The translations under genes and the position numbers were made by a program. The notes below the pieces were generated by a model. It was given only the letters and a program-made list of their open reading frames with translations, was not told the DNA's origin and ran no database searches. Shown piece by piece: positions 31,306 to 38,788 of a DNA stretch of 40,267 nt. The stretch lies in the IMG/VR virus record IMGVR_UViG_3300032073_000069, positions 1 through 40,267 of that record, one strand, 5' to 3'. Position 1 is the first letter of the stretch; each line of letters begins with the position of its first letter. The DNA is from a virus.

Positions 31306-31863
31306 TTACTCTCTCATATTTATGAGTAATAATACAAGATAACCTATCAAGTCTTTAATCACATCTTCATCTGATTCCATACTATCATTACCTTGCACAA
31401 TCCTATTGATTTTATCATCAATTCTTACCTTGATTTGTTCAGTTGTGTCAGCCGTAGAAAAGACTCTAACTGGCTGTAAAGCGGAGTCGCCATACTGAAC
31501 ATTTTTAGCCAAAAGCATGGTCTTAATTTCATCCACAAGTCCTGCTATTTTGACCTGGTTAGCCCCAAGCACTTTACTTCCTTTTATAGAGGGTAATTGT
31601 TGTTGTGGTAAAGCACCCTTTACAACACTCTTTGGTGTTGCTTTCATTGGTGTATAATTTAACTTATTCATTCTAATTTGAGGCTTAACACTTTTAGGTT
31701 TATTGCTATATCTCTTAGGTAAAATACCTAAGCCTTGTAGGTGGTAAATCTTAGACGTTACTTTACTTTGATTAACACCTAACTCTGATGCTATGTCCTT
31801 TGTTTTCATACCTTCTTTATATCGTTTAATTATTTTCTTTTCTTCTTTCTTAGTTAATACCAT
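31306..31863 (-). CDS. HTH protein with C-terminal Nmad1/MazG-like domain
   Basis: A 185-aa protein. Residues 1-50 are a helix-turn-helix (KKIIKRYKEGMKTKDIASEL, then VNQSKVTSKIYHLQGLG). A Lys/Pro-rich linker follows. The C-terminal part, about 105-185 (DEIKTMLLAKNVQYGDSALQ, VRIDDKINRI, DEDVIKDLIGYLVLL), resembles the DUF1599/Nmad1 domain, a MazG-like helical fold linked to nucleotide metabolism or DNA modification. It is the first gene of the minus block and could regulate it. The ATG at 31863 follows GGAGAATAAAAGAA. An upstream GTG lies in a hairpin and is less likely. Confidence 0.6.
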   Translation of the reverse strand: MVLTKKEEKKIIKRYKEGMKTKDIASELGVNQSKVTSKIYHLQGLGILPKRYSNKPKSVKPQIRMNKLNYTPMKATPKSVVKGALPQQQLPSIKGSKVLGANQVKIAGLVDEIKTMLLAKNVQYGDSALQPVRVFSTADTTEQIKVRIDDKINRIVQGNDSMESDEDVIKDLIGYLVLLLINMRE

Positions 31864-31893
31864 TTCTTTTATTCTCCTTTTTGTGTTAAACAA

Positions 31894-31914
31894 GTCCACG
31901 CGCTACTAGTGGAC
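31894..31914 (-). promoter_or_regulatory. 6-bp hairpin in the leader of the HTH gene
   Basis: GTCCAC (31894-31899) and GTGGAC (31909-31914) pair around a 9-base loop, about 30 bases upstream of the HTH gene start. It could be an operator for the gene's own product or a leader RNA hairpin. Confidence 0.3.
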
Positions 31915-31943: not shown

Positions 31944-32217
31944 TTTCTAACATTATTCTAATCCCATTGGAAACACATTTTGCACCAGATACTTTATGAT
32001 AACTGATACAATTTGACTTGTTTTGACTGTCATTTCTAATTTCTAACGTTTCTAACCCCCCATCAGGGTAGGTAGGTAGGTAGGTAGGTAGGTAGTTGTT
32101 ATATATATTAGTTAGAAATATTATAATATTATAAATATATAATTTTAACATACTTACTATACCCTAACCCACTCATTTTGACCAAACTCATTTCCAATCC
32201 AAATTAGAAATTAGAAA
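31944..32217. other. AT-rich spacer with TTAGAAA iterons, candidate origin/control region
   Basis: Seven copies of one 7-mer: TTTCTAA at 31944, 32033, 32040 and 32049, and its complement TTAGAAA at 32112, 32204 and 32211. The inverted clusters flank a GGTA microsatellite (32067-32094) and an extremely AT-rich core (about 32098-32150). No credible gene lies here; the frame 31927-32151 owes part of its length to the microsatellite. The change in gene direction and an HTH gene next door make this a candidate replication origin or master promoter. From 32218 to 32524 I see only AT-rich sequence, a TATATATA-like stretch near 32450 and a weak GGTGG/CCACC hairpin near 32385-32428. Confidence 0.45.
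32067..32094. repeat. GGTA tetranucleotide microsatellite, 7 units
   Basis: Seven perfect tandem GGTA units. It is the only simple tandem repeat in the window. Such tracts change length by slippage and could tune spacing in the surrounding control region. Confidence 0.95.
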
Positions 32218-32541
32218 CGTATTCGATAAACTATCATATCATATAGGATATGCCATATTGATATGTGTATAAGATAAGACATATATTATACATAGATAGC
32301 CTTCTCGGTTCATTAATCCTAAACTATGCTTATTCACTGTATAATAAATTAAGCCATTAAATGTAATAGGTATAAATAGGCCATTGGTGGAATGCGTGTT
32401 TAACAGGCCATTAGATTTTAATTGCCACCGACATTACAATCAAATCGAGTTAGTATATATACTGCGCGGCACCCCTCGATGCCCTCGCTCTACAATACGC
32501 TATTCTTTTTTTATTACTCTACAACCATATGGAGTTAGCGT

Positions 32542-32587
32542 TTGTTGTAATGTGTCATTGAGAACACTTGCTAGGCAAGGACAACAA
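32542..32587 (+). ncRNA. Structured element Y, copy 1
   Basis: A 46-base fold: TTGTTGT (32542-32548) with ACAACAA (32581-32587), inner GTGT/ACAC (near 32552-32566), and CTTGC-TAG-GCAAG (32567-32579). A second copy lies on the minus strand at 38338-38383 with the same length, the same CTTGCTAGGCAAG and a GTCATT-AGAAC core, but a different closing stem. That is evidence for conserved structure. Confidence 0.5.
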
Positions 32588-32735
32588 TAGCGGCATCCAC
32601 AAATGAGGTAAGCCCTAAACGCTCACCATGAATTCACTATGTTATGGACAACCATATGGTTCTAAACTTTGTTCATAGAACCAGAAGTTTTGGAGACAAG
32701 AATAGGTATTTTTCAACCTATCCTTGCCTACCGTT

Positions 32736-33327
32736 GTCGCTGACCAAAACTAAAGTTCAGAAGGCGATTATTCCTCCTCCTGAACTTCGTCATAAGATGC
32801 ACAAGCATCTAAGCCGATAGTAGTGCCATCCCATTCTTTGGATTTGAATAATTCTCTAGCAGTTTGCTTGGCTTTAGCCACTAAAGTATTTGCGTAGTCA
32901 TCAGCATCTAAAAACACAGGTGCGCCTTTAGATTTACCATGCTTTCTTAGCAGGGGTTGTGAATAAGTCTGAGTGGTAGTGAAAAACAGATGAGCCGCTT
33001 CTCTAATTTCTGCACAAGCAGTTTCAACAACCATACTTGCCTCAATAGACAATAGCCCTTGATTACCTCTTCTCCAGACTACTTGACCAGACGGGAAATC
33101 TTTCAACATTGCTTTTACTGATGCCGCTAGTGCAGCACGGTTTGCGACATTATTATCTCCTGTCTCCATTAGCATACTTACTAATGCTTTCACATCAACA
33201 GGTATTTCACCGTCAATGTCCCCATCTAAGCATGAGGCTATTTTGTTCTTTACATTATTCCAATTACTTTCTTCCATTTTAATTACCTTCCTGATAATCC
33301 ATTCTTCCCTTTAGTTAGGTCAGCGAC
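32736..33327 (-). repeat. Inverted repeat enclosing the 169-aa gene
   Basis: GTCGCTGACC followed by AAAACTAAAG (32736-32755) is the complement, with one extra base and one mismatch, of CTTTAGTTAGGTCAGCGAC (33309-33327). The gene 32768-33277 lies entirely inside. The outer edge of the right arm is 25 bases from a TATA box, so the transcript probably begins with this arm. Confidence 0.7.
32768..33277 (-). CDS. HGKSxG family protein, 169 aa, inside the palindrome array
   Basis: A mostly helical acidic protein. Its C-terminal part (RKHGKSKGAPVFLDADDY, then a helix, then KSKEWDGTT and an EEE end) matches the plus-strand protein at 35449-35988 (KTHGKSGGILYRDMED, helix, KRYFWDGT and QEEE end), so the two are likely paralogues. 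No known family or catalytic motif is recognised. GGAAGGTAATTAAA precedes the ATG. The gene lies inside an inverted repeat with its own TATA box. Confidence 0.7.
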   Translation of the reverse strand: MEESNWNNVKNKIASCLDGDIDGEIPVDVKALVSMLMETGDNNVANRAALAASVKAMLKDFPSGQVVWRRGNQGLLSIEASMVVETACAEIREAAHLFFTTTQTYSQPLLRKHGKSKGAPVFLDADDYANTLVAKAKQTARELFKSKEWDGTTIGLDACASYDEVQEEE

Positions 33328-33343
33328 ATATCAATCTAATATC

Positions 33344-33384
33344 GTTAGTATATAAGGGGTTCTTGACAAAGTCGAACCATATGG
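33344..33384 (-). promoter_or_regulatory. Promoter of the 169-aa gene: CCATATGG, hairpin and TATA box
   Basis: Read on the minus strand: CCATATGG (33384-33377), a GGTTC/GAACC hairpin with a GACTTTGTC loop, then CTTATATACTAAC (33356-33344) as TATA box. Twenty-five bases on is 33327, the edge of the inverted repeat, a typical archaeal start-site distance. About 50 bases of leader precede the gene. Confidence 0.65.
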
Positions 33385-33477
33385 TGTTGAATAAGAGGTA
33401 TTCGATAAGAATTGGCGTTAAGCCTAACTCTAAACACCCCAAGCGGCTTACTGCCTTAACGGGTAGATGATAAGAAT
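33377..33477 (+). repeat. Structured element Z, copy 1
   Basis: After CCATATGG comes GGTGTT (33383-33388) pairing with AACACC (33433-33438), an inner GAAT/ATTC hairpin and GGCGTTAAGCC (33414-33424). It ends with GGGTAGATGATAAGAAT (33461-33477) and then AAAAATATATTTTT (33487-33500). Copy 2 is at 34715-34825. Confidence 0.5.
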
Positions 33478-34298
33478 CACTGGAACAAAAATATATTTTT
33501 GGAGCATTTCCTCATCACGGTTATGCTTTTTTCAAATAGTATTAATAATACAGAGGGCTAAATGCCCACAACCTGTACAAATTACTAATACTAAAAATCA
33601 TAATCATGATACACCAATGCACCCAAAAATATATTTTTTTCCGTTCCTTTCTTTACACTACCATATGGTTTGTCATAATTGAAAGACAGTTGATGTGAAC
33701 AGTTAGGTGTCAATAAGGTAGCGCAATAATAGTGCTACATTAGTTACACCGTGAACATTGTTACTGTATGATGTATAGACAATACCACATAAAGACCGTA
33801 TGCGGTAAGGATACTACCATAGTTATTTACGCTTAATGCGTATACGAAACCTAACCATATGGTTGCAGTTCGTGATAAATACGGCCAACGGCAGTGATTT
33901 ATCAAACGATACAAATACATAGTTTGCCCCAGGCTTTAAACCCTTTGTGGATGCGATTAGTATAAGATGAAACACCTAGTTTACACTGGCTTAATGCCAT
34001 AAATACGCTGTTCCATCCATTATTACTTACTTACCATATGGTTGCATTAAGCAAGGAACGTAGTCCCACTGAACTACGAGACATTTCCCCACCGAAATCT
34101 GGTTTTGACTTCCGCTAACCGCTTAACTAAACTCCGCAAAACTTGCTAAACTCTGCAAAACTTGCCGAGATTATGTAAAATCAAAACCATATGGTAGTCC
34201 ATAATGAATGGAATGGAAAGGGTTAGGACTTACCTTATTCCCATGTGAGGGAGTAAGGTTGACGACTATTCTTGTGCATAATGCACACTACCTTACTC
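33385..34298. other. Non-coding palindrome-rich stretch
   Basis: No credible gene. It contains six CCATATGG sites, centres at 33414, 33555, 33828, 33988, 34042 and 34274, paired AAAAATATATTTTT tracts at 33487 and 33625 flanking a hairpin, and element X copy 1. CCTTATTCCC...GGGAGTAAGG forms a hairpin near 34232-34257. The open frame at 33467-33682 crosses these palindromes and is not gene-like. Confidence 0.7.
33706..33750 (+). ncRNA. Structured element X, copy 1
   Basis: The core AATAAGGTAGCGCAATAATA followed by GTGCTA (33712-33737) is identical in copy 2 at 38121-38146. Here the closing stem is GTGT/ACAC (33707-33710 with 33747-33750); in copy 2 it is GTAT/ATAC at the same spacing. GTAGC and GCTAC pair inside. 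A compensating base change with a frozen core points to a selected fold. Confidence 0.6.
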
Positions 34299-34340
34299 CC
34301 ATATGGTAGGACAACTTTGTTAAGGACTACCTTAAATAGT
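34299..34340 (+). promoter_or_regulatory. Promoter of the 67-aa gene: CCATATGG, hairpin, CTTAAATAGT
   Basis: CCATATGG (34299-34306) begins a GGTAG/CTACC hairpin with ACTTTGT in its loop, directly followed by the TATA box CTTAAATAGT (34331-34340). About 27 bases beyond the box centre, at 34362, the AGACAGCCC arm of a leader hairpin begins. The same arrangement is seen at 35343-35383 and, on the minus strand, 36686-36726. Confidence 0.65.
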
Positions 34341-34361
34341 AACTAATATTCATTGTAATGT

Positions 34362-34464
34362 AGACAGCCCACCAATGCTTGACCGCTATCCAACAACACG
34401 ATGATGCCATGAGACAATCTGAGTGTATTTATTGGAAGCATAGCCACTTGGTTAAGGGCTGTCT
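34362..34464 (+). promoter_or_regulatory. Long hairpin in the 5' leader of the 67-aa gene
   Basis: AGACAGCCC (34362-34370) pairs perfectly with GGGCTGTCT (34456-34464). ACCAA/TTGGT and TGCTT/AAGCA extend the stem inward. The hairpin starts at the predicted transcript start and ends just before the ribosome site GGTGA, so it could control translation. Confidence 0.55.
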
Positions 34465-34482
34465 CACCCTTTGGTGATTTTA

Positions 34483-34686
34483 ATGAATAACGAAACTACT
34501 ACTATTATACAACAAGTGAACGCCCCTAAATATGCTATCAAATTGAAACATATGAAATCAGGTCAAAACATTGTCCTCTCTATTGAGGAATTGAAGGTAT
34601 CTGGTGATGACCTTTCTATGGTTATGGCCGAATTAAGACAGGCTTTAGACGAATATATGTCTATAACGGGGGAATCTGAAGATTAA
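34483..34686 (+). CDS. 67-aa acidic protein inside the palindrome array
   Basis: A small protein: NETTTIIQQVNAPKYAIKLK, a beta pair, then the helix DLSMVMAELRQALDEYM and an acidic tail. The ATG at 34483 has GGTGA at good spacing. It has its own promoter and leader hairpin, and its 3' flank holds the GGTTCTA-loop-TAGAACC element before CCATATGG (34692-34722). No family recognised. Confidence 0.6.
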   Translation: MNNETTTIIQQVNAPKYAIKLKHMKSGQNIVLSIEELKVSGDDLSMVMAELRQALDEYMSITGESED

Positions 34687-34691
34687 CTTCA

Positions 34692-34722
34692 GGTTCTACT
34701 AACAAAGTTTAGAACCATATGG
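34692..34722 (-). repeat. GGTTCTA/TAGAACC hairpin joined to CCATATGG
   Basis: On the minus strand CCATATGG runs into GGTTCTA-AACTTTGTTAG-TAGAACC. A near-identical hairpin lies at 32652-32682, there on the plus strand. Each follows the 3' end of a gene, and both share AACTTC next to the stem. They may act in 3' end formation or as DNA recognition sites. Confidence 0.6.
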
Positions 34723-34825
34723 TGTTAGGAAAAACTATACTGATTAGTTCTTGAAACTAAGAAGTGGCGTTAAGCCAAGTCTAACATCCTAAGAGCCTAC
34801 GGCGTGAGGGGTAGATGATAAGAAT
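34715..34825 (+). repeat. Structured element Z, copy 2
   Basis: TGTTAG (34723-34728) pairs with CTAACA (34781-34786), TTAGTT pairs with AACTAA inside, GGCGTTAAGCC is at 34766-34776, and the element ends with GGGTAGATGATAAGAAT (34809-34825) and AAAAATATATTTTT (34838-34851). Order and conserved blocks match copy 1 at 33377, while the stems have other sequences. Confidence 0.5.
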
Positions 34826-35342
34826 ACACTTACAAGCAAAAATATATTTTTGTAAGCGCAACGCGGGGGCTTTACAGATTTTTAACCGATAATATTACGC
34901 AGTGGCTTAATGCCACTAATTGCTAAATTAATACCATCTGAATCTGTAAAACCCCACGCGCTTGCCGCACTACAAAAATATATTTTTACAATGTTCCATC
35001 TTTACACTACCATATGGTTGATAAACGTATGTAGGTGGCATTAAGCCACATCTTGAGGACAGTTTACAATCCCAATACATCGGATATTGTACCAACTAAG
35101 CCGACAACATGAATTGACGAATACTTCTCATCGTTACTCTACGACTAGACGATGACAAGCCTTCTTACAACCCATAACGTCTATCGTTTAACACTACCAT
35201 ATGGGTGTAAGCCTTAAGGCACGAATGGATAATTCTCTTATTCATCGCAATTATATATTCAACGTATTTCTAGGGCTTAATGCCCTTACTAATATATAAT
35301 TACTCTTCACTTCAAGCAATCATCAATTACCACTTCGTTGTA
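34723..35342. other. Non-coding palindrome-rich stretch
   Basis: No credible gene. The clearest unit is the inverted repeat CGCGGGGGCTTTACAGATT (34862-34880) with AATCTGTAAAACCCCACGCG (34941-34960) around the centre GTGGCTTAATGCCAC (34912-34926). It is flanked by AAAAATATATTTTT on both sides (34838 and 34974). Other centres are at 35035, 35211 and 35273; the last has AATTATATATT/AATATATAATT arms. Confidence 0.75.
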
Positions 35343-35383
35343 CCATATGGTGTGATACTTTGTGGATGAACACCTTAAATAGT
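35343..35383 (+). promoter_or_regulatory. Promoter of the 179-aa gene: CCATATGG, hairpin, CTTAAATAGT
   Basis: CCATATGG, a GGTGT/ACACC hairpin with ACTTTGT in the loop, then the TATA box CTTAAATAGT (35374-35383). Twenty-five bases past the box centre is 35403, the first base of the GAAGGTGGCC arm. TFB encoded at 22057 could use it. Confidence 0.65.
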
Positions 35384-35402
35384 AAGCAAAATTGACTGTA
35401 AT

Positions 35403-36008
35403 GAAGGTGGCCTAACACCTAGTTATTTATAACTTGGAGGAATAAATTATGGTAGATTACAGTATGGAAGATAACACATGGAATGCTAAGAAAGAATTGA
35501 TTGCAGAATGGTTCGATGCGAACCCTCAACATGAGGGTAGACGAGTCATTGCTGATGGACTATTTGCTATAGGTGATATGCAAAGCGACCTTCGTAAGAA
35601 GCATTGGTCTAGCATTAGTGGGATATTTGCTGATTTGAGCAATTCCCCTATTGGCGGCGGTAGAAGGTCATTGATGACCACCGCTATTAAATCGGATTTT
35701 GATACATACAAAGCAGATTATTGGCAGTATCAATATGACGTAGCATACAATCAAGAACGTGGATTTGCTAAAACACACGGTAAATCCGGCGGAATCCTCT
35801 ATAGAGATATGGAAGATGGACGCACCTCATACGCAGACAATCAAACTAAGGTTTTGTCCTTATTTTTGAGTCAATGCTACAATGCGTATGCTAAGAATGA
35901 CGTATCAAAGCGTTATTTCTGGGACGGGACTTTCACAATGGAAGGTTATCCGAATGTAGTAGATAATGGGGGACAAGAAGAAGAGTGATTAGGTGATAGG
36001 CCACCTTC
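35403..36008 (+). repeat. Inverted repeat enclosing the 179-aa gene
   Basis: GAAGGTGGCCTAACACCTA (35403-35421) and TAGGTGATAGGCCACCTTC (35990-36008) are complementary at 18 of 19 positions. The gene lies inside. The mRNA would thus have base-paired ends. Chance formation of such a repeat exactly around a gene, twice in the region, is unlikely. Confidence 0.75.
35449..35988 (+). CDS. HGKSxG family protein, 179 aa, inside the palindrome array
   Basis: The paralogue of the 169-aa protein at 32768. It has an acidic N-terminal helical part, GGGRRSLM near residue 67, AKTHGKSGGILYRDMED near 112, a helix, FWDGTFTMEG and a QEEE end. No known family is recognised. GGAGGAATAAATT precedes the ATG. Dedicated promoter and enclosing arms suggest high or specially controlled expression. 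A structural or nucleoid role is possible, but nothing in the sequence decides it. Confidence 0.7.
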   Translation: MVDYSMEDNTWNAKKELIAEWFDANPQHEGRRVIADGLFAIGDMQSDLRKKHWSSISGIFADLSNSPIGGGRRSLMTTAIKSDFDTYKADYWQYQYDVAYNQERGFAKTHGKSGGILYRDMEDGRTSYADNQTKVLSLFLSQCYNAYAKNDVSKRYFWDGTFTMEGYPNVVDNGGQEEE

Positions 36009-36718
36009 ACCCTTCTTTTTGTCCCTTTTTTCAGGTTCACGTTCTTTTAACAAAGTATTACCACTCCCACCATATGGGTGTAGCCCTTATGGAGACTTTT
36101 TCGTTAAAATTTCATGGCTTCACGCCTTTTCACATTAATTGTAATCAAGTGCTAAATGCACTATACAATGTTAAAAAACCTTCACCATTTCAAGTTTTCA
36201 CAAAAAACCATTTCATTGTTCCATATGGGTGTATACTTTGTTAATAGACCCACAAGGCCGAGCGTTGTTTATAACACCTGCAACCTACTAACGCACTAAT
36301 GGCTAGCCTTTCGGTTGGATGCACTGGAATAACTTACGGGATTTCCACTTTTATGCCCCACTCGTTTGTGTGGTCTAGTTTTTTTATTTTATGAGTCCAT
36401 TAAACTATCGTTTGGCTCAAACCTTGTAAACTAGAAAAACAGGGGAGTGAGTGGGTTGATGTTTCCACCGTCCACCAATTCTGAATGGGTGTCTATATTT
36501 GCATGTAGCATTCACCCCAGAAAACATACCATAGGAAAGTTACTTCCCTTTTACTGACCGCCTTATGATTAGCGACCTCGTTGTTCCACCACAGAACATG
36601 ATATTCCATTAGCCCTAGACAAAGGACTTATTCTGGCACACTCATGCCGAGTTACGTTTCCTCGACATAATAATAGATACTGATGACTATTTAAGGTGTG
36701 ATTCTACAAAGTATAACA
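36009..36718. other. Non-coding stretch with a large folded unit
   Basis: No credible gene; frames here cross palindromes. It holds CCATATGG at 36070 and 36221 and a centre at 36148. The unit between 36229 and 36718 is the largest one without a gene. It can form CCCACTC/GAGTGGG with CTAGTTT/AAACTAG (about 36357-36455) and TTCTG...TGGGTG/CATTCACCCC-AGAA (about 36479-36522). A minus promoter faces into it, so a structured RNA of about 400 bases on the minus strand is possible. Confidence 0.55.
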
Positions 36719-36726
36719 CCATATGG
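36686..36726 (-). promoter_or_regulatory. Promoter facing a non-coding unit: CCATATGG, hairpin, CTTAAATAGT
   Basis: On the minus strand: CCATATGG (36726-36719), a GGTGT/ACACC hairpin with ACTTTGT in the loop, then CTTAAATAGT (36695-36686). The arrangement is the same as at 34299 and 35343. The predicted start is near 36666. No gene follows, so the product would be a non-coding RNA. Confidence 0.6.
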
Positions 36727-36913
36727 TATTAAATTAGATTTTCAAGATTTCTAGTAACGTAGTGGTTAAAGTATTTAATGAAACATTCAGTGAAAGTGAA
36801 GCGTTGAATGCTTTAAACTATACAATCGCAGGAAATTTAACAGCGAAGCGTTTCTTACCTTAAGGGTGCTTAACGCTACACTACACCCATATGGGTGGAG
36901 TGCAGTAATTGTT

Positions 36914-37141
36914 TCATTCCATCAAGTCTTCAAAGGATGAATACATATAGTCTTCTGATATTTCATCATCAGACGTATTCAGCCAAAGAAGCGCAGAGGT
37001 AATGATTACAATAACAATCGCAAGCCATATAATCTGGTTCTGTCCCTCTACGATGAACCATATGGTTGCATAAAAGATGTAGGAGTAGGTGATAATTCTC
37101 CAGCCTCCTTGTTGGCTAGTGAAAGGTAATGCATTAGGCAT
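36914..37141 (-). CDS. Small membrane protein with acidic tail
   Basis: A 75-aa frame with hydrophobic helices (IITYSYIFYATIWFIV and IIWLAIVIVIITSALLWL) and an acidic tail (SDDEISEDYMYSSFEDL). The tail resembles that of the other small membrane protein at 37860 (FVYEDDMY). The gene spans one CCATATGG (as Thr-Ile-Trp) and its ATG lies in the loop of an inverted repeat. No ribosome site is clear, so the start is uncertain. Confidence 0.4.
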   Translation of the reverse strand: MPNALPFTSQQGGWRIITYSYIFYATIWFIVEGQNQIIWLAIVIVIITSALLWLNTSDDEISEDYMYSSFEDLME

Positions 37142-37198
37142 TAGTGAAACGTTTATGGAAACGTGCCAACGGAGGATGCTGGTAGAGTTATCTACCTA
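37086..37198. repeat. Long inverted repeat at the start of the membrane gene
   Basis: The left arm 37086-37116 (TAGGTGATAA...CCAGCCTCC...GTTGGC) pairs with the right arm 37165-37198 (GCCAAC...GGAGGATGCTGG...TTATCTACCTA) with a few mismatches. The 48-base loop contains the start codon of the 75-aa frame. Confidence 0.6.
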
Positions 37199-37859
37199 TG
37201 ACTAATATTTTATGTGATAAACCACATCCTTCAGGTGCGATTCATTCGCACTGCTTGCATGTCCTCTATAGAACATTGTTCTATTCTCACTGTGCTTAAT
37301 GCACTAATCGTTTAACCGAGAAGATACAACGTTCTACTAACGACACGCAATGCTTTACGTTTCTCACACCATATGGTTATATTCAAGGATTATACTTGGA
37401 AGACGCTAGTATATTCAGATGTTCTTGTTGATGTAGAACATTAGCAAGAACCATGCATTAAGCATGATGATAGCGTCTCTCCATTATAAGAGTTAATAAT
37501 AACCCTAAATGGGGTATTGTAATAGTTCCCTACGACTTTACTCTGTTAGGCAAAACTGAACATGGTTACTCGGTAAGTATTACTTAACTGACACATATAA
37601 CCGTGCTTAATGCACTATTAGTTATCTTATGTTTACATATAATACGTACCAGTTCACCTCGTTCCGCTTTTGCCTAACAGAGTAAACTCTTGTATAACTT
37701 AACACTACCATATGGCATCATATTGTGAGGTAGGTCGAACTTAGATAGTCCCCAATGAGGTAAGTACGCAAAAGCCCTTCCACTCTGTTATAGGCTTAAC
37801 GCCTAGAGTCCTTTTACTCCTACCATATGGTAAGAGGAAGTCTGCCGATGATAGACTGT
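37199..37859. other. Non-coding palindrome-rich stretch
   Basis: No gene seen. It contains CCATATGG at 37370, 37708 and 37823, and centres GTGCTTAATGCAC (37292), CATGCATTAAGCATG (37452), GTGCTTAATGCAC (37603) and TAGGCTTAACGCCTA (37791), each with its own arms. The best arms are listed separately at 37537-37686. Confidence 0.7.
37537..37686. repeat. 150-bp unit with 19-bp perfect inverted repeat
   Basis: TTTACTCTGTTAGGCAAAA (37537-37555) and TTTTGCCTAACAGAGTAAA (37668-37686) are perfect complements. GTGCTTAATGCAC (37603-37615) sits at the middle. This is the cleanest example of the unit type: outer arms, weaker inner arms (ATAAC/GTTAT) and the conserved centre. Confidence 0.85.
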
Positions 37860-38051
37860 TCAATACATGTCATCTTCGTATACAAAATAAGACAGTCTTC
37901 TCTGTTGAGCAGTGATAAGGTCATCCTTATCAGTGCCATCAGGCATTGATGCTATTATAGCATCTTGTCTTCTTTCGTAGAAGAAGATGTATATGTGCAG
38001 GGCAGTCGCTAATAAGGCACTAATGATGATTATCCATAAATCTGTGGTCAA
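37860..38051 (-). CDS. 63-aa single-pass membrane protein
   Basis: A small protein with one helix (LWIIIISALLATALHIYIFF), then charged residues and a tail FVYEDDMY. The only upstream start is a TTG at 38051 with an in-frame stop just before it and no ribosome site. A leaderless or alternative start is possible. It lies between CCATATGG sites at 37823 and 38068. Function unknown. Confidence 0.4.
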   Translation of the reverse strand: MTTDLWIIIISALLATALHIYIFFYERRQDAIIASMPDGTDKDDLITAQQRRLSYFVYEDDMY

Positions 38052-38115
38052 TTATGCTAACGCATGACCATATGGAGGGTCATGAAGTGATAAAAGGTAA
38101 TGTATGAACATAACA

Positions 38116-38158
38116 GTATGAATAAGGTAGCGCAATAATAGTGCTATCTTAGTAATAC
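38116..38158 (+). ncRNA. Structured element X, copy 2
   Basis: The same 26-base core as at 33712, with the closing stem GTAT (38116-38119) and ATAC (38155-38158) instead of GTGT/ACAC. TGAACA (38105-38110) and TGTTCA further out form an additional stem around it. The next palindrome centre is at 38233. Confidence 0.6.
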
Positions 38159-38337
38159 CGTGAAATACATTATTTGTTCATGATAGATTTCTCCACAAGA
38201 ACTGAGGTAGCCCGCTTCGCTGTGGCGGAGAGATGGCTTAATGCCATTATCCTCTTGTTTCCACAAGCCTACCATATGGTGTTAAAAGTTCTAGGCTTGC
38301 CTATGGTAATAACATCCTCATTCGGGACTGCGCTCTC

Positions 38338-38383
38338 CTGTCCCACTTGCCTAGCAAGCGTTCTTAATGACATACTGTGACAG
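38338..38383 (-). ncRNA. Structured element Y, copy 2
   Basis: On the minus strand: CTGTC...GACAG closing stem, GTCATTAAGAAC core and CTTGCTAGGCAAG hairpin. It is 46 bases, like copy 1 at 32542, which closes with TTGTTGT/ACAACAA. The open frames that cross the two copies share SLRTLARQ, which is explained by this common sequence. Confidence 0.5.
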
Positions 38384-38641
38384 TATCCGCCTCCATATGG
38401 TAGTGTTAAAGTGTAGGTTACTTTACCTAAGTCTTCGGAGACTTTCAAGGGTAGGAGAATATTTAACAGTATACATACGCGCTGAACCAACCCAGGTTCA
38501 GGTAAGTAATGTATTGGCATTAAGCCAATGTTTATTCGACTAGACTTACAGTTGGAAGAGACATTAGAGTTTAAGTAACTAAACAATAACATCTACCCCA
38601 TGCCGTCTACTGTGGGATGTCTGCAATCTGGTTGTTCTACA

Positions 38642-38692
38642 TAGTATCCATAGAACGGCTTAATGCCTTATTGTTCTATTACCTAGATACTA
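38642..38692. repeat. Short inverted-repeat unit
   Basis: TAGTATC (38642-38648) with GATACTA (38686-38692) and ATAGAAC (38650-38656) with GTTCTAT (38673-38679) enclose GGCTTAATGCC (38657-38667). Two perfect 7-bp stems flank the conserved centre. Confidence 0.8.
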
Positions 38693-38788
38693 TGACAACC
38701 ATATGATTGTGCATTATGCACACCGTTAGGGAAGTCCCAATCCTATTTGGTTGAACTCGCTTCGCTCAGACACATTACAACCATATGC

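Follow-up and report, generated by a model that had tools for sequence, protein, structure and literature searches.

Gene, RNA and non-coding units bounded by one palindromic octamer form a rearranged array in a probable magrovirus-like virus

The window analysed here, i.e., the whole 40,267-nt stretch of the viral record IMGVR_UViG_3300032073_000069 (IMG/VR, positions 1 to 40,267), contains between positions 32525 and 38788 an array of units that are separated by copies of the octamer CCATATGG. All 23 exact copies in the window are located within 32525-38400, compared to a mean of 0.51 and a maximum of 3 copies for the whole window in dinucleotide shuffles, and the octamer spelled backwards, used as a letter-reversed control, has no copy in the window. 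The spacing between neighbouring octamers ranges from 112 to 727 bp. The initial annotation of this DNA had reported 23 exact octamers and two variants as far above chance and had placed the array end at 38788. Both statements were borne out, the latter by the variants CCATATGA at 38699 and CCATATGC at 38781, which carry the array to this position. The extended consensus ACCATATGGT is the sole sequence common to all unit boundaries. The array and its exact octamers are located as follows.

32525-38788, unstranded: whole array, 22 units between 23 exact copies of CCATATGG, then two units bounded by the variants CCATATGA and CCATATGC
Exact octamer starts: 32525, 32652, 33377, 33661, 33855, 34034, 34187, 34299, 34715, 35010, 35197, 35343
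Exact octamer starts, continued: 36070, 36221, 36719, 36887, 37058, 37369, 37708, 37823, 38068, 38272, 38393

The array comprises two unit classes, expression cassettes and non-coding units. Among 318 units cut from the window and 38 contigs, 97 contain a confident gene (median length 725 bp), 199 are short and non-coding (median length 142 bp), and 22 are unclear. Expression cassettes carry either a manA-type RNA or small orphan genes (one to a few), and the coding cassettes occur in both orientations (47 plus, 46 minus). At a distance of at most 30 nt from the octamer, the motif [A/G]CTTTG is present at 84 of 93 5' ends and 75 of 93 3' ends of coding cassettes, and it occurs at neither end in 183 of the 199 non-coding units. 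This half-site reads inward at both ends, with 257 occurrences of CTTTG compared to 4 of CAAAG in the first 20 nt. It forms a hairpin GGTNNN-[A/G]CTTTG-NNNACC, in which the CTTTG motif is situated in the loop and the stem opens with the octamer's own GG. The stems vary yet pair: under strict pairing, at least two pairs beyond GGT/ACC were observed in 63 of 158 half-sites, compared to at most 24 in 200 permutations. A looser hairpin score, by which G-U pairs and mismatches are allowed, separated real from permuted half-sites poorly. Behind the half-site, a TATA-like box (loose pattern) is situated at 57 of 90 5' ends versus 21 of 90 3' ends. The window contains four expression cassettes.

32652-33384, minus strand: cassette 1, orphan protein encoded at 32768-33277 (minus strand; 169 aa, acidic tail EEE), a half-site hairpin at either end, relatives in 12 contigs
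32658-32682, plus strand: half-site hairpin at the 3' end of cassette 1, GGTTCTA-AACTTTGTTCA-TAGAACC
33350-33378, minus strand: half-site at the 5' end of cassette 1, GGTTCGACTTTGTCAAGAACC, then TATA-like CTTATATA
34299-34722, plus strand: cassette 2, small protein, open reading frame at 34471-34686 (plus strand; 71 aa), family in 18 contigs
34305-34338, plus strand: half-site and box of cassette 2, GGTAGGACAACTTTGTTAAGGACTACC and TATA-like TTAAATA
34692-34716, minus strand: half-site at the 3' end of cassette 2, GGTTCTAAACTTTGTTAGTAGAACC
35343-36077, plus strand: cassette 3, orphan protein encoded at 35449-35988 (plus strand; 179 aa, tail QEEE), distant relative of the cassette 1 protein
35349-35381, plus strand: half-site and box of cassette 3, GGTGTGATACTTTGTGGATGAACACC and TATA-like TTAAATA
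36221-36726, minus strand: cassette 4, manA RNA in place of a protein gene, each end with a CTTTG half-site, the 5' end in addition with TATA-like TTAAATA
36440-36667, minus strand: manA RNA (RF01745), 50.2 bits, E-value 8e-11, starting 59 nt past the 5' octamer

The manA RNA scores below the gathering score of 55.2, both in the window (50.2) and in four relatives (41.9-54.3 in L006, L018, L025, and L040), with E-values of 8e-11 to 2e-7, and is probably a divergent member of RF01745. In 5 out of 5 cases, the manA-type RNAs are located in half-site-bearing cassettes and start 59-62 nt past the octamer; this constant distance fits a promoter at a fixed place. Due to the half-sites at both ends, the TATA-like box, and the fixed manA start, the first unit class is regarded as a cassette for expressing either a protein or an RNA. 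The same box after the 5' half-site and the same constant start also speak for another explanation, in which octamer and half-site represent an early-gene regulatory element, i.e., operator and promoter, that controls a regulon of accessory or anti-defence genes, similar to those of Sulfolobus viruses, the shuffling being neutral mosaicism and the boundaries being kept by selection. For early genes of archaeal viruses, conserved sequences with a regulatory role have been described, which in one case are inverted repeats (PMC11065993). We consider this explanation improbable, since the half-site is nearly as frequent at 3' ends, mostly without a TATA-like box, and since the octamer also bounds the 199 non-coding units, most of which have no half-site. 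Furthermore, the stems vary with pairing kept, unlike a sequence-specific operator, and inversions are not explained by a regulatory element alone.

The cassette proteins are orphans, for which no recognisable relatives were found in Pfam, PADLOC, and PHROGs. Acidic tails (at least three acidic residues among the last five, with ends EEE or EEEE) occur in 27% of array proteins compared to 10% elsewhere. In case of cassette 3, the presumed 5' and 3' ends of the transcript are complementary (GAAGGTGGCC and GGCCACCTTC, at about 35404-35413 and 36000-36009). Approximately 27 short units in relatives, e.g., L011 G007.03-05, L009 G005.02, L071 G031.06, and L083 G026.01, with none in the window, contain a Shine-Dalgarno-like AGGAGG, a start codon and, following it, a tiny acidic frame such as MFFDDDE, MYDDED, or MFDEED; shuffled units give 0-1 of these. 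Codon changes in the tiny frames are mainly GAT/GAC and GAA/GAG, as if they were translated.

Folding of the non-coding units was scored against dinucleotide shuffles after removal of the terminal octamers, by which their trivial pairing is discounted. For 197 non-coding units of the 38 contigs, a mean z-score of -2.07 was obtained with 42% of the units below -2, compared to -0.47 and 11% for 120 gene-derived control windows. The 18 non-coding units of the window range from +0.7 to -9.5, with the strongest folds at 37369 (-9.5), 37058 (-6.95), 34715 (-6.8), 33377 (-6.3), and 37823 (-5.96). An excess over shuffled sequence is thus found overall, except for several small units, among them those at 32525, 37708, and 38272, for which none was found. 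In orthologous units, 34 compensatory pairs were counted versus 18.4 +- 3.9 (maximum 30) under a substitution-shuffling null, and 184 broken pairs versus 252 expected, in line with the initial annotation, according to which the arms vary yet keep pairing. This conservation of pairs is supporting, not conclusive, because the test is based on the predicted structure of one member. The suggestion that the units are small structured RNAs is only partly right; it agrees with the folding excess, the compensatory changes and the one manA RNA unit. Similarly, the array is not purely one of hairpins, as it had first been pictured: folded units are present, but at least 4 of its 22 units (32652, 34299, 35343, and 36221) hold a gene or an RNA and represent expression cassettes. 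The non-coding units of the window are listed below, where G002 denotes IMGVR_UViG_3300006921_000010, the closest relative with a whole array.

33377-33668, unstranded: non-coding unit with arms AAAAATATATTTTT, fold z-score -6.3; paralogue at 34715-35017, z-score -6.8
33661-33862, unstranded: non-coding unit with a paralogue at 38068-38279; orthologues inverted in G002
33855-34306, unstranded: three non-coding units with starts at 33855, 34034, and 34187
35010-35350, unstranded: two non-coding units with starts at 35010 and 35197, which remain adjacent to cassette 3 in G002
36070-36228, unstranded: non-coding unit, present in G002 at 94% identity in inverted form
36719-38400, unstranded: eight units with starts at 36719, 36887, 37058, 37369, 37708, 37823, 38068, and 38272, several of them strongly folded

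Two sequence features were observed besides. A block GGTTGCAGTTCGTGATAAA..ACGGC..CAACGGCAG by the octamer is common to non-coding units of four lineages (33855-33951, G002.08, G014.13, and G028.03), the other halves differing. In the window, G002, and G035, small hairpins GC-RTTAA-GC (or the complement) are found almost only in the array (14, 14, and 13 copies inside, respectively, versus 0-3 outside), and other lineages nearly lack them.

The octamer CCATATGG is present in all 38 contigs examined whole, with 2-24 copies each, the reversed octamer occurring 0-3 times. Every relative retrieved by protein similarity contains a CCATATGG cluster at one locus, and in those contigs where positions were listed or read the octamers form one cluster with few or no strays. 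The array is also present in the relatives that were retrieved via cassette proteins, and for all 10 relatives retrieved solely via the flanking gene 31306-31899 (see below) the octamers adjoin that gene. Two or more octamers were found in 65 of 68 additional loci fetched, and in the viral collection the octamer together with the full half-site pattern is present in at least 119 stretches. Degenerate octamers are nearly absent inside the arrays. The array is present in all relatives, whereas its absence from close relatives would have spoken against the initial annotation. No similar DNA was found in the phage DNA collection. In cellular genomes, the octamer-pair pattern yielded 19 matches, which, as judged by octamer position alone, resemble chance pairs or short tandem repeats. 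Hairpin-rich DNA may be misassembled, but as numerous contigs of differing sample origin display this architecture, with genes intact and proteins conserved, an assembly artefact is hardly credible.

The window and G002 are collinear in the flanking genes, with about 93% identity next to the array, but within the array the units are reordered, several are inverted, and 22 of 31 interior ends of homologous segments are located on octamers in both genomes (7.5%, i.e., about 2.3, expected). Collinear flanks of about 91-93% identity accompany the scrambled arrays. Breakpoints of homology are located at octamers in 14 out of 16 cases for G014 and G021 (6.3% expected) and in 11 out of 19 cases for G014 and G028, and for all pairs pooled in 99 out of 337 cases versus 17.5 expected. 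For G014 and G021, the gene cassettes move and invert as well, and the unit maps contain moves and inversions in several lineages. Compared to the more distant G035, the window shares gene cassettes, two of which are swapped, and none of the non-coding units. Due to the breakpoints at octamers and the moves and inversions, the units are regarded as discrete cassettes. Cassette-like recombination units had been one of the options offered by the initial annotation, which is well supported by these breakpoints and by the differing order and orientation of units in close relatives.

As judged from these comparisons, the non-coding units turn over faster than the gene cassettes. Such a difference in speed between the window and G002 would also be expected if the non-coding units were non-autonomous mobile hairpins, similar to miniature inverted-repeat transposable elements, that transpose into CCATATGG and duplicate it, with the gene cassettes as mere targets. 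The octamer could in this case be a target duplication, and the lack of shared non-coding units in G035 would fit. Nevertheless, this origin is rather unlikely, given that gene cassettes also move and invert (G014 and G021) and that no common terminal inverted repeat beyond the octamer was found among the 199 non-coding units. In addition, no Y1 transposase was found, DDE families not having been searched for.

We hold it to be reasonably probable that the locus represents a cassette array in the variable region of the virus, which is rearranged by recombination at the palindromic octamer and includes promoter-bearing expression cassettes. Recombination inside ACCATATGGT would move, invert, gain, and lose units, and since the octamer core reads the same on both strands, a given unit end could join any other and both orientations would arise. 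The folded half-sites may serve as recognition features of the expression cassettes. After the 5' half-site, a TATA-like promoter would start transcription about 59 nt from the octamer, and with its own promoter each expression cassette would be expressible in any position. The short non-coding hairpin units would constitute the faster-moving class. An octamer-specific recombinase, either viral or of the host and belonging to a family not recognised by family search, would carry out the exchange, and the array would presumably serve to generate accessory-gene diversity.

Several observations weigh against this interpretation. Relative to G002, the order and orientation of the four expression cassettes are unchanged in the window and mainly non-coding units have moved, and pairs of about 96-97% identity are collinear. 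Part of the breakpoints is located away from octamers, and some units are chimeric internally; moreover, recombination was judged from the comparison of contigs and not at read level. Beyond the octamer only approximately 5 bp are informative, with a weak preference, which is short for a site of a tyrosine or serine recombinase. Tyrosine recombinases (PF00589) were found in none of 23 records, which may be fragments, compared to 14 out of 14 control genomes. Likewise, serine recombinases (PF00239) and Y1 transposases (PF01797) are absent from the 23 records, whereas control genomes do match; DDE transposases were not part of this search. Of the conserved uncharacterised proteins tested, none matched a recombinase. 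In detail, PDB profile searches of the conserved proteins A1, A3, A4, and A5 as recombinase candidates gave nothing usable, and no solved structure matched the AlphaFold models of the 179-aa cassette protein and of a 450-aa conserved protein. Structure comparison with BFVD resulted in one match, A0A516LI30, which is without name.

The failure to find a recombinase among the families searched is in agreement with the main rival explanation, namely enzyme-free boundary recombination, in which octamer and hairpins act as breakage points and microhomology and units are joined by viral replication and recombination proteins, i.e., RecB-like and ERCC4-like nucleases and an ATP-dependent ligase, a mechanism reportedly put forward for the mobile regulatory cassettes of T4-type phages. 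PD-(D/E)XK, ERCC4-HhH, and ligase proteins are indeed encoded by the virus, the chimeric interiors of some units would be accounted for, and palindromic microhomology would permit inversions. For most non-coding units with a counterpart in G002, however, the match spans 93% or more of the unit, hardly any octamer inside the arrays is degenerate, and simple microhomology joining needs no inverted terminal hairpins at both gene ends, so that we consider this alternative unlikely, even if less so than the regulatory and transposition alternatives above. Intact unit ends and the near-absence of degenerate octamers would favour a site-specific process. A more specific version of the cassette interpretation can be put forward tentatively, namely a hitherto undescribed virus-borne site-specific system in which an unrecognised recombinase acts on the octamer and the folded half-sites and continually rearranges gene cassettes with promoters and cassettes of non-coding RNA in marine viruses of archaea, independently of integrons and of all known recombinase families.

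According to Pfam, the proteins encoded in the window include a split family B DNA polymerase, a clamp loader (RFC), an ATP-dependent ligase, a TFIIB zinc ribbon protein, and ribonucleotide reductase, as well as nucleases of the ERCC4 type (ERCC4-HhH) and the PD-(D/E)XK type (RecB-like). The gene set of magroviruses (Aoguangviridae) includes an archaeal tailed-virus replisome with split PolB, RFC, ligase, and TFB (PMC10768690). By comparison with this published description, the replisome gene set of the window agrees with that of the Magrovirales, and the window is probably a fragment of a magrovirus-like marine archaeal virus. Due to this match of gene sets, we infer an archaeal host of the Poseidoniales type. 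The array is situated between the leftward and rightward gene blocks, where the cumulative GC skew turns. Except for this place at the strand switch, nothing supports the earlier idea that the units are hairpins used in replication or priming. Upstream of the first octamer, the following features were recorded.

31306-31899, minus strand: flanking gene encoding an N-terminal helix-turn-helix (HTH) and a conserved C-terminal domain (phrog_1485); adjoins the array in all 10 loci retrieved with it
32116-32485, unstranded: conserved non-coding stretch that separates the flanking gene from the array and is also present in distant relatives; 76% to L040, matched in part by L032 and L025

The flanking gene was considered as a recombinase and rejected, since most relatives, like unrelated phages, carry its C-terminal domain with no HTH attached. 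It is retained as a flank marker only, because the conserved part is the separate C-terminal domain phrog_1485. The HTH part is found only near the lineage of the window, and Microbacterium, Synechococcus, and Cellulophaga phages possess the C-terminal domain on its own. A GTAG microsatellite is located beside the array at about 32064-32094.

Among systems with rearranging segments, shufflons and DNA invertases such as R64 Rci bring about multi-segment inversion at short repeated sites by a dedicated tyrosine (Rci) or serine (Hin/Gin) recombinase. The array does not belong to this kind, PF00589 and PF00239 being absent from the 23 records, and in contrast to shufflons it has a fully palindromic core and units that also translocate and turn over. 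Elements of the IS200/IS605 type depend on a Y1 HUH transposase and carry subterminal hairpins, identically oriented at the two ends, beside a cleavage sequence that is short and fixed. Hairpins beside a short fixed sequence are found here as well, but those of the two ends are mutually inverted, CTTTG reading inward at both, and PF01797 is absent from the 23 records, so that this assignment was rejected, too. The mobile regulatory cassettes (PeSL) of T4-type phages, reportedly described by Arbiol et al. in 2010, are said to consist of an early promoter and a stem-loop at gene boundaries and to undergo modular shuffling. A promoter-like box and a stem-loop at gene boundaries of a variable region are observed in the array as well; here, however, one invariant palindromic octamer bounds every unit, non-coding units alike, and hairpins are present at both ends.

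In the early anti-defence regulons of archaeal viruses (PMC11065993), small accessory orphan genes likewise share a promoter-proximal conserved sequence. This sequence is situated around promoters there, whereas in the array a covarying hairpin is present at both gene ends and the octamer bounds non-coding units, too. Compared to manA RNAs (RF01745; PMC2864571), one cassette of the window holds a recognisable manA-type RNA, but as a stand-alone cassette in an archaeal-type virus and not ahead of a metabolic gene. The cassette interpretation, if true, would account for the location of stand-alone manA-type RNAs in these viruses.

To our knowledge, integrons are the only well-known system of interchangeable gene cassettes bounded by one site. 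If the cassette interpretation is true, a second, unrelated cassette system exists in widespread marine archaeal viruses, i.e., this solution evolved more than once, and it points to a recombinase missed by current family models. The octamer with its CTTTG half-site would moreover represent a sequence handle for accessory genes of uncultured archaeal viruses. Integrons and the integrase-less attC clusters of phages have in common with the array the small, mostly orphan cassettes, one short site, variable-stem hairpins, and reordering between relatives (PMC9892861). In contrast to integrons, the array has a palindromic core, half-sites at both cassette ends, mostly non-coding units, and both orientations equally common. 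An integron-type array, or an attC cluster without integrase in a phage, is suggested by the arrangement in cassettes with folded sites, which virulent phages carrying attC clusters display as well (PMC9892861), and is nonetheless extremely improbable. It was rejected on defining features: beside the octamer, in the first 5-nt bin, the attC core was found as GTTRRRY in only 15 and as RYYYAAC in 3 of 715 half-sites, and no tyrosine recombinase (PF00589) was detected in the 23 records, although a host-borne IntI could act. Nor are the cassettes mostly one-way and promoterless as in integrons, since their orientation is random (47 plus, 46 minus) and promoter-like boxes of their own are present (57 of 90 5' ends). 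The comparison with attC hairpins made in the initial annotation is consequently a fair functional analogy, but membership fails for want of the GTTRRRY core and of an integrase. In the literature searched, which is not the whole literature, no account of the octamer in this context or of magrovirus cassettes was found. The claim of a wholly new kind would weaken if the mechanism were enzyme-free boundary recombination. The anatomy itself is regarded as wholly new, because no kind known to us shares the site, the two-ended folded half-sites, and the two unit classes: the array works like an integron array but is not one.

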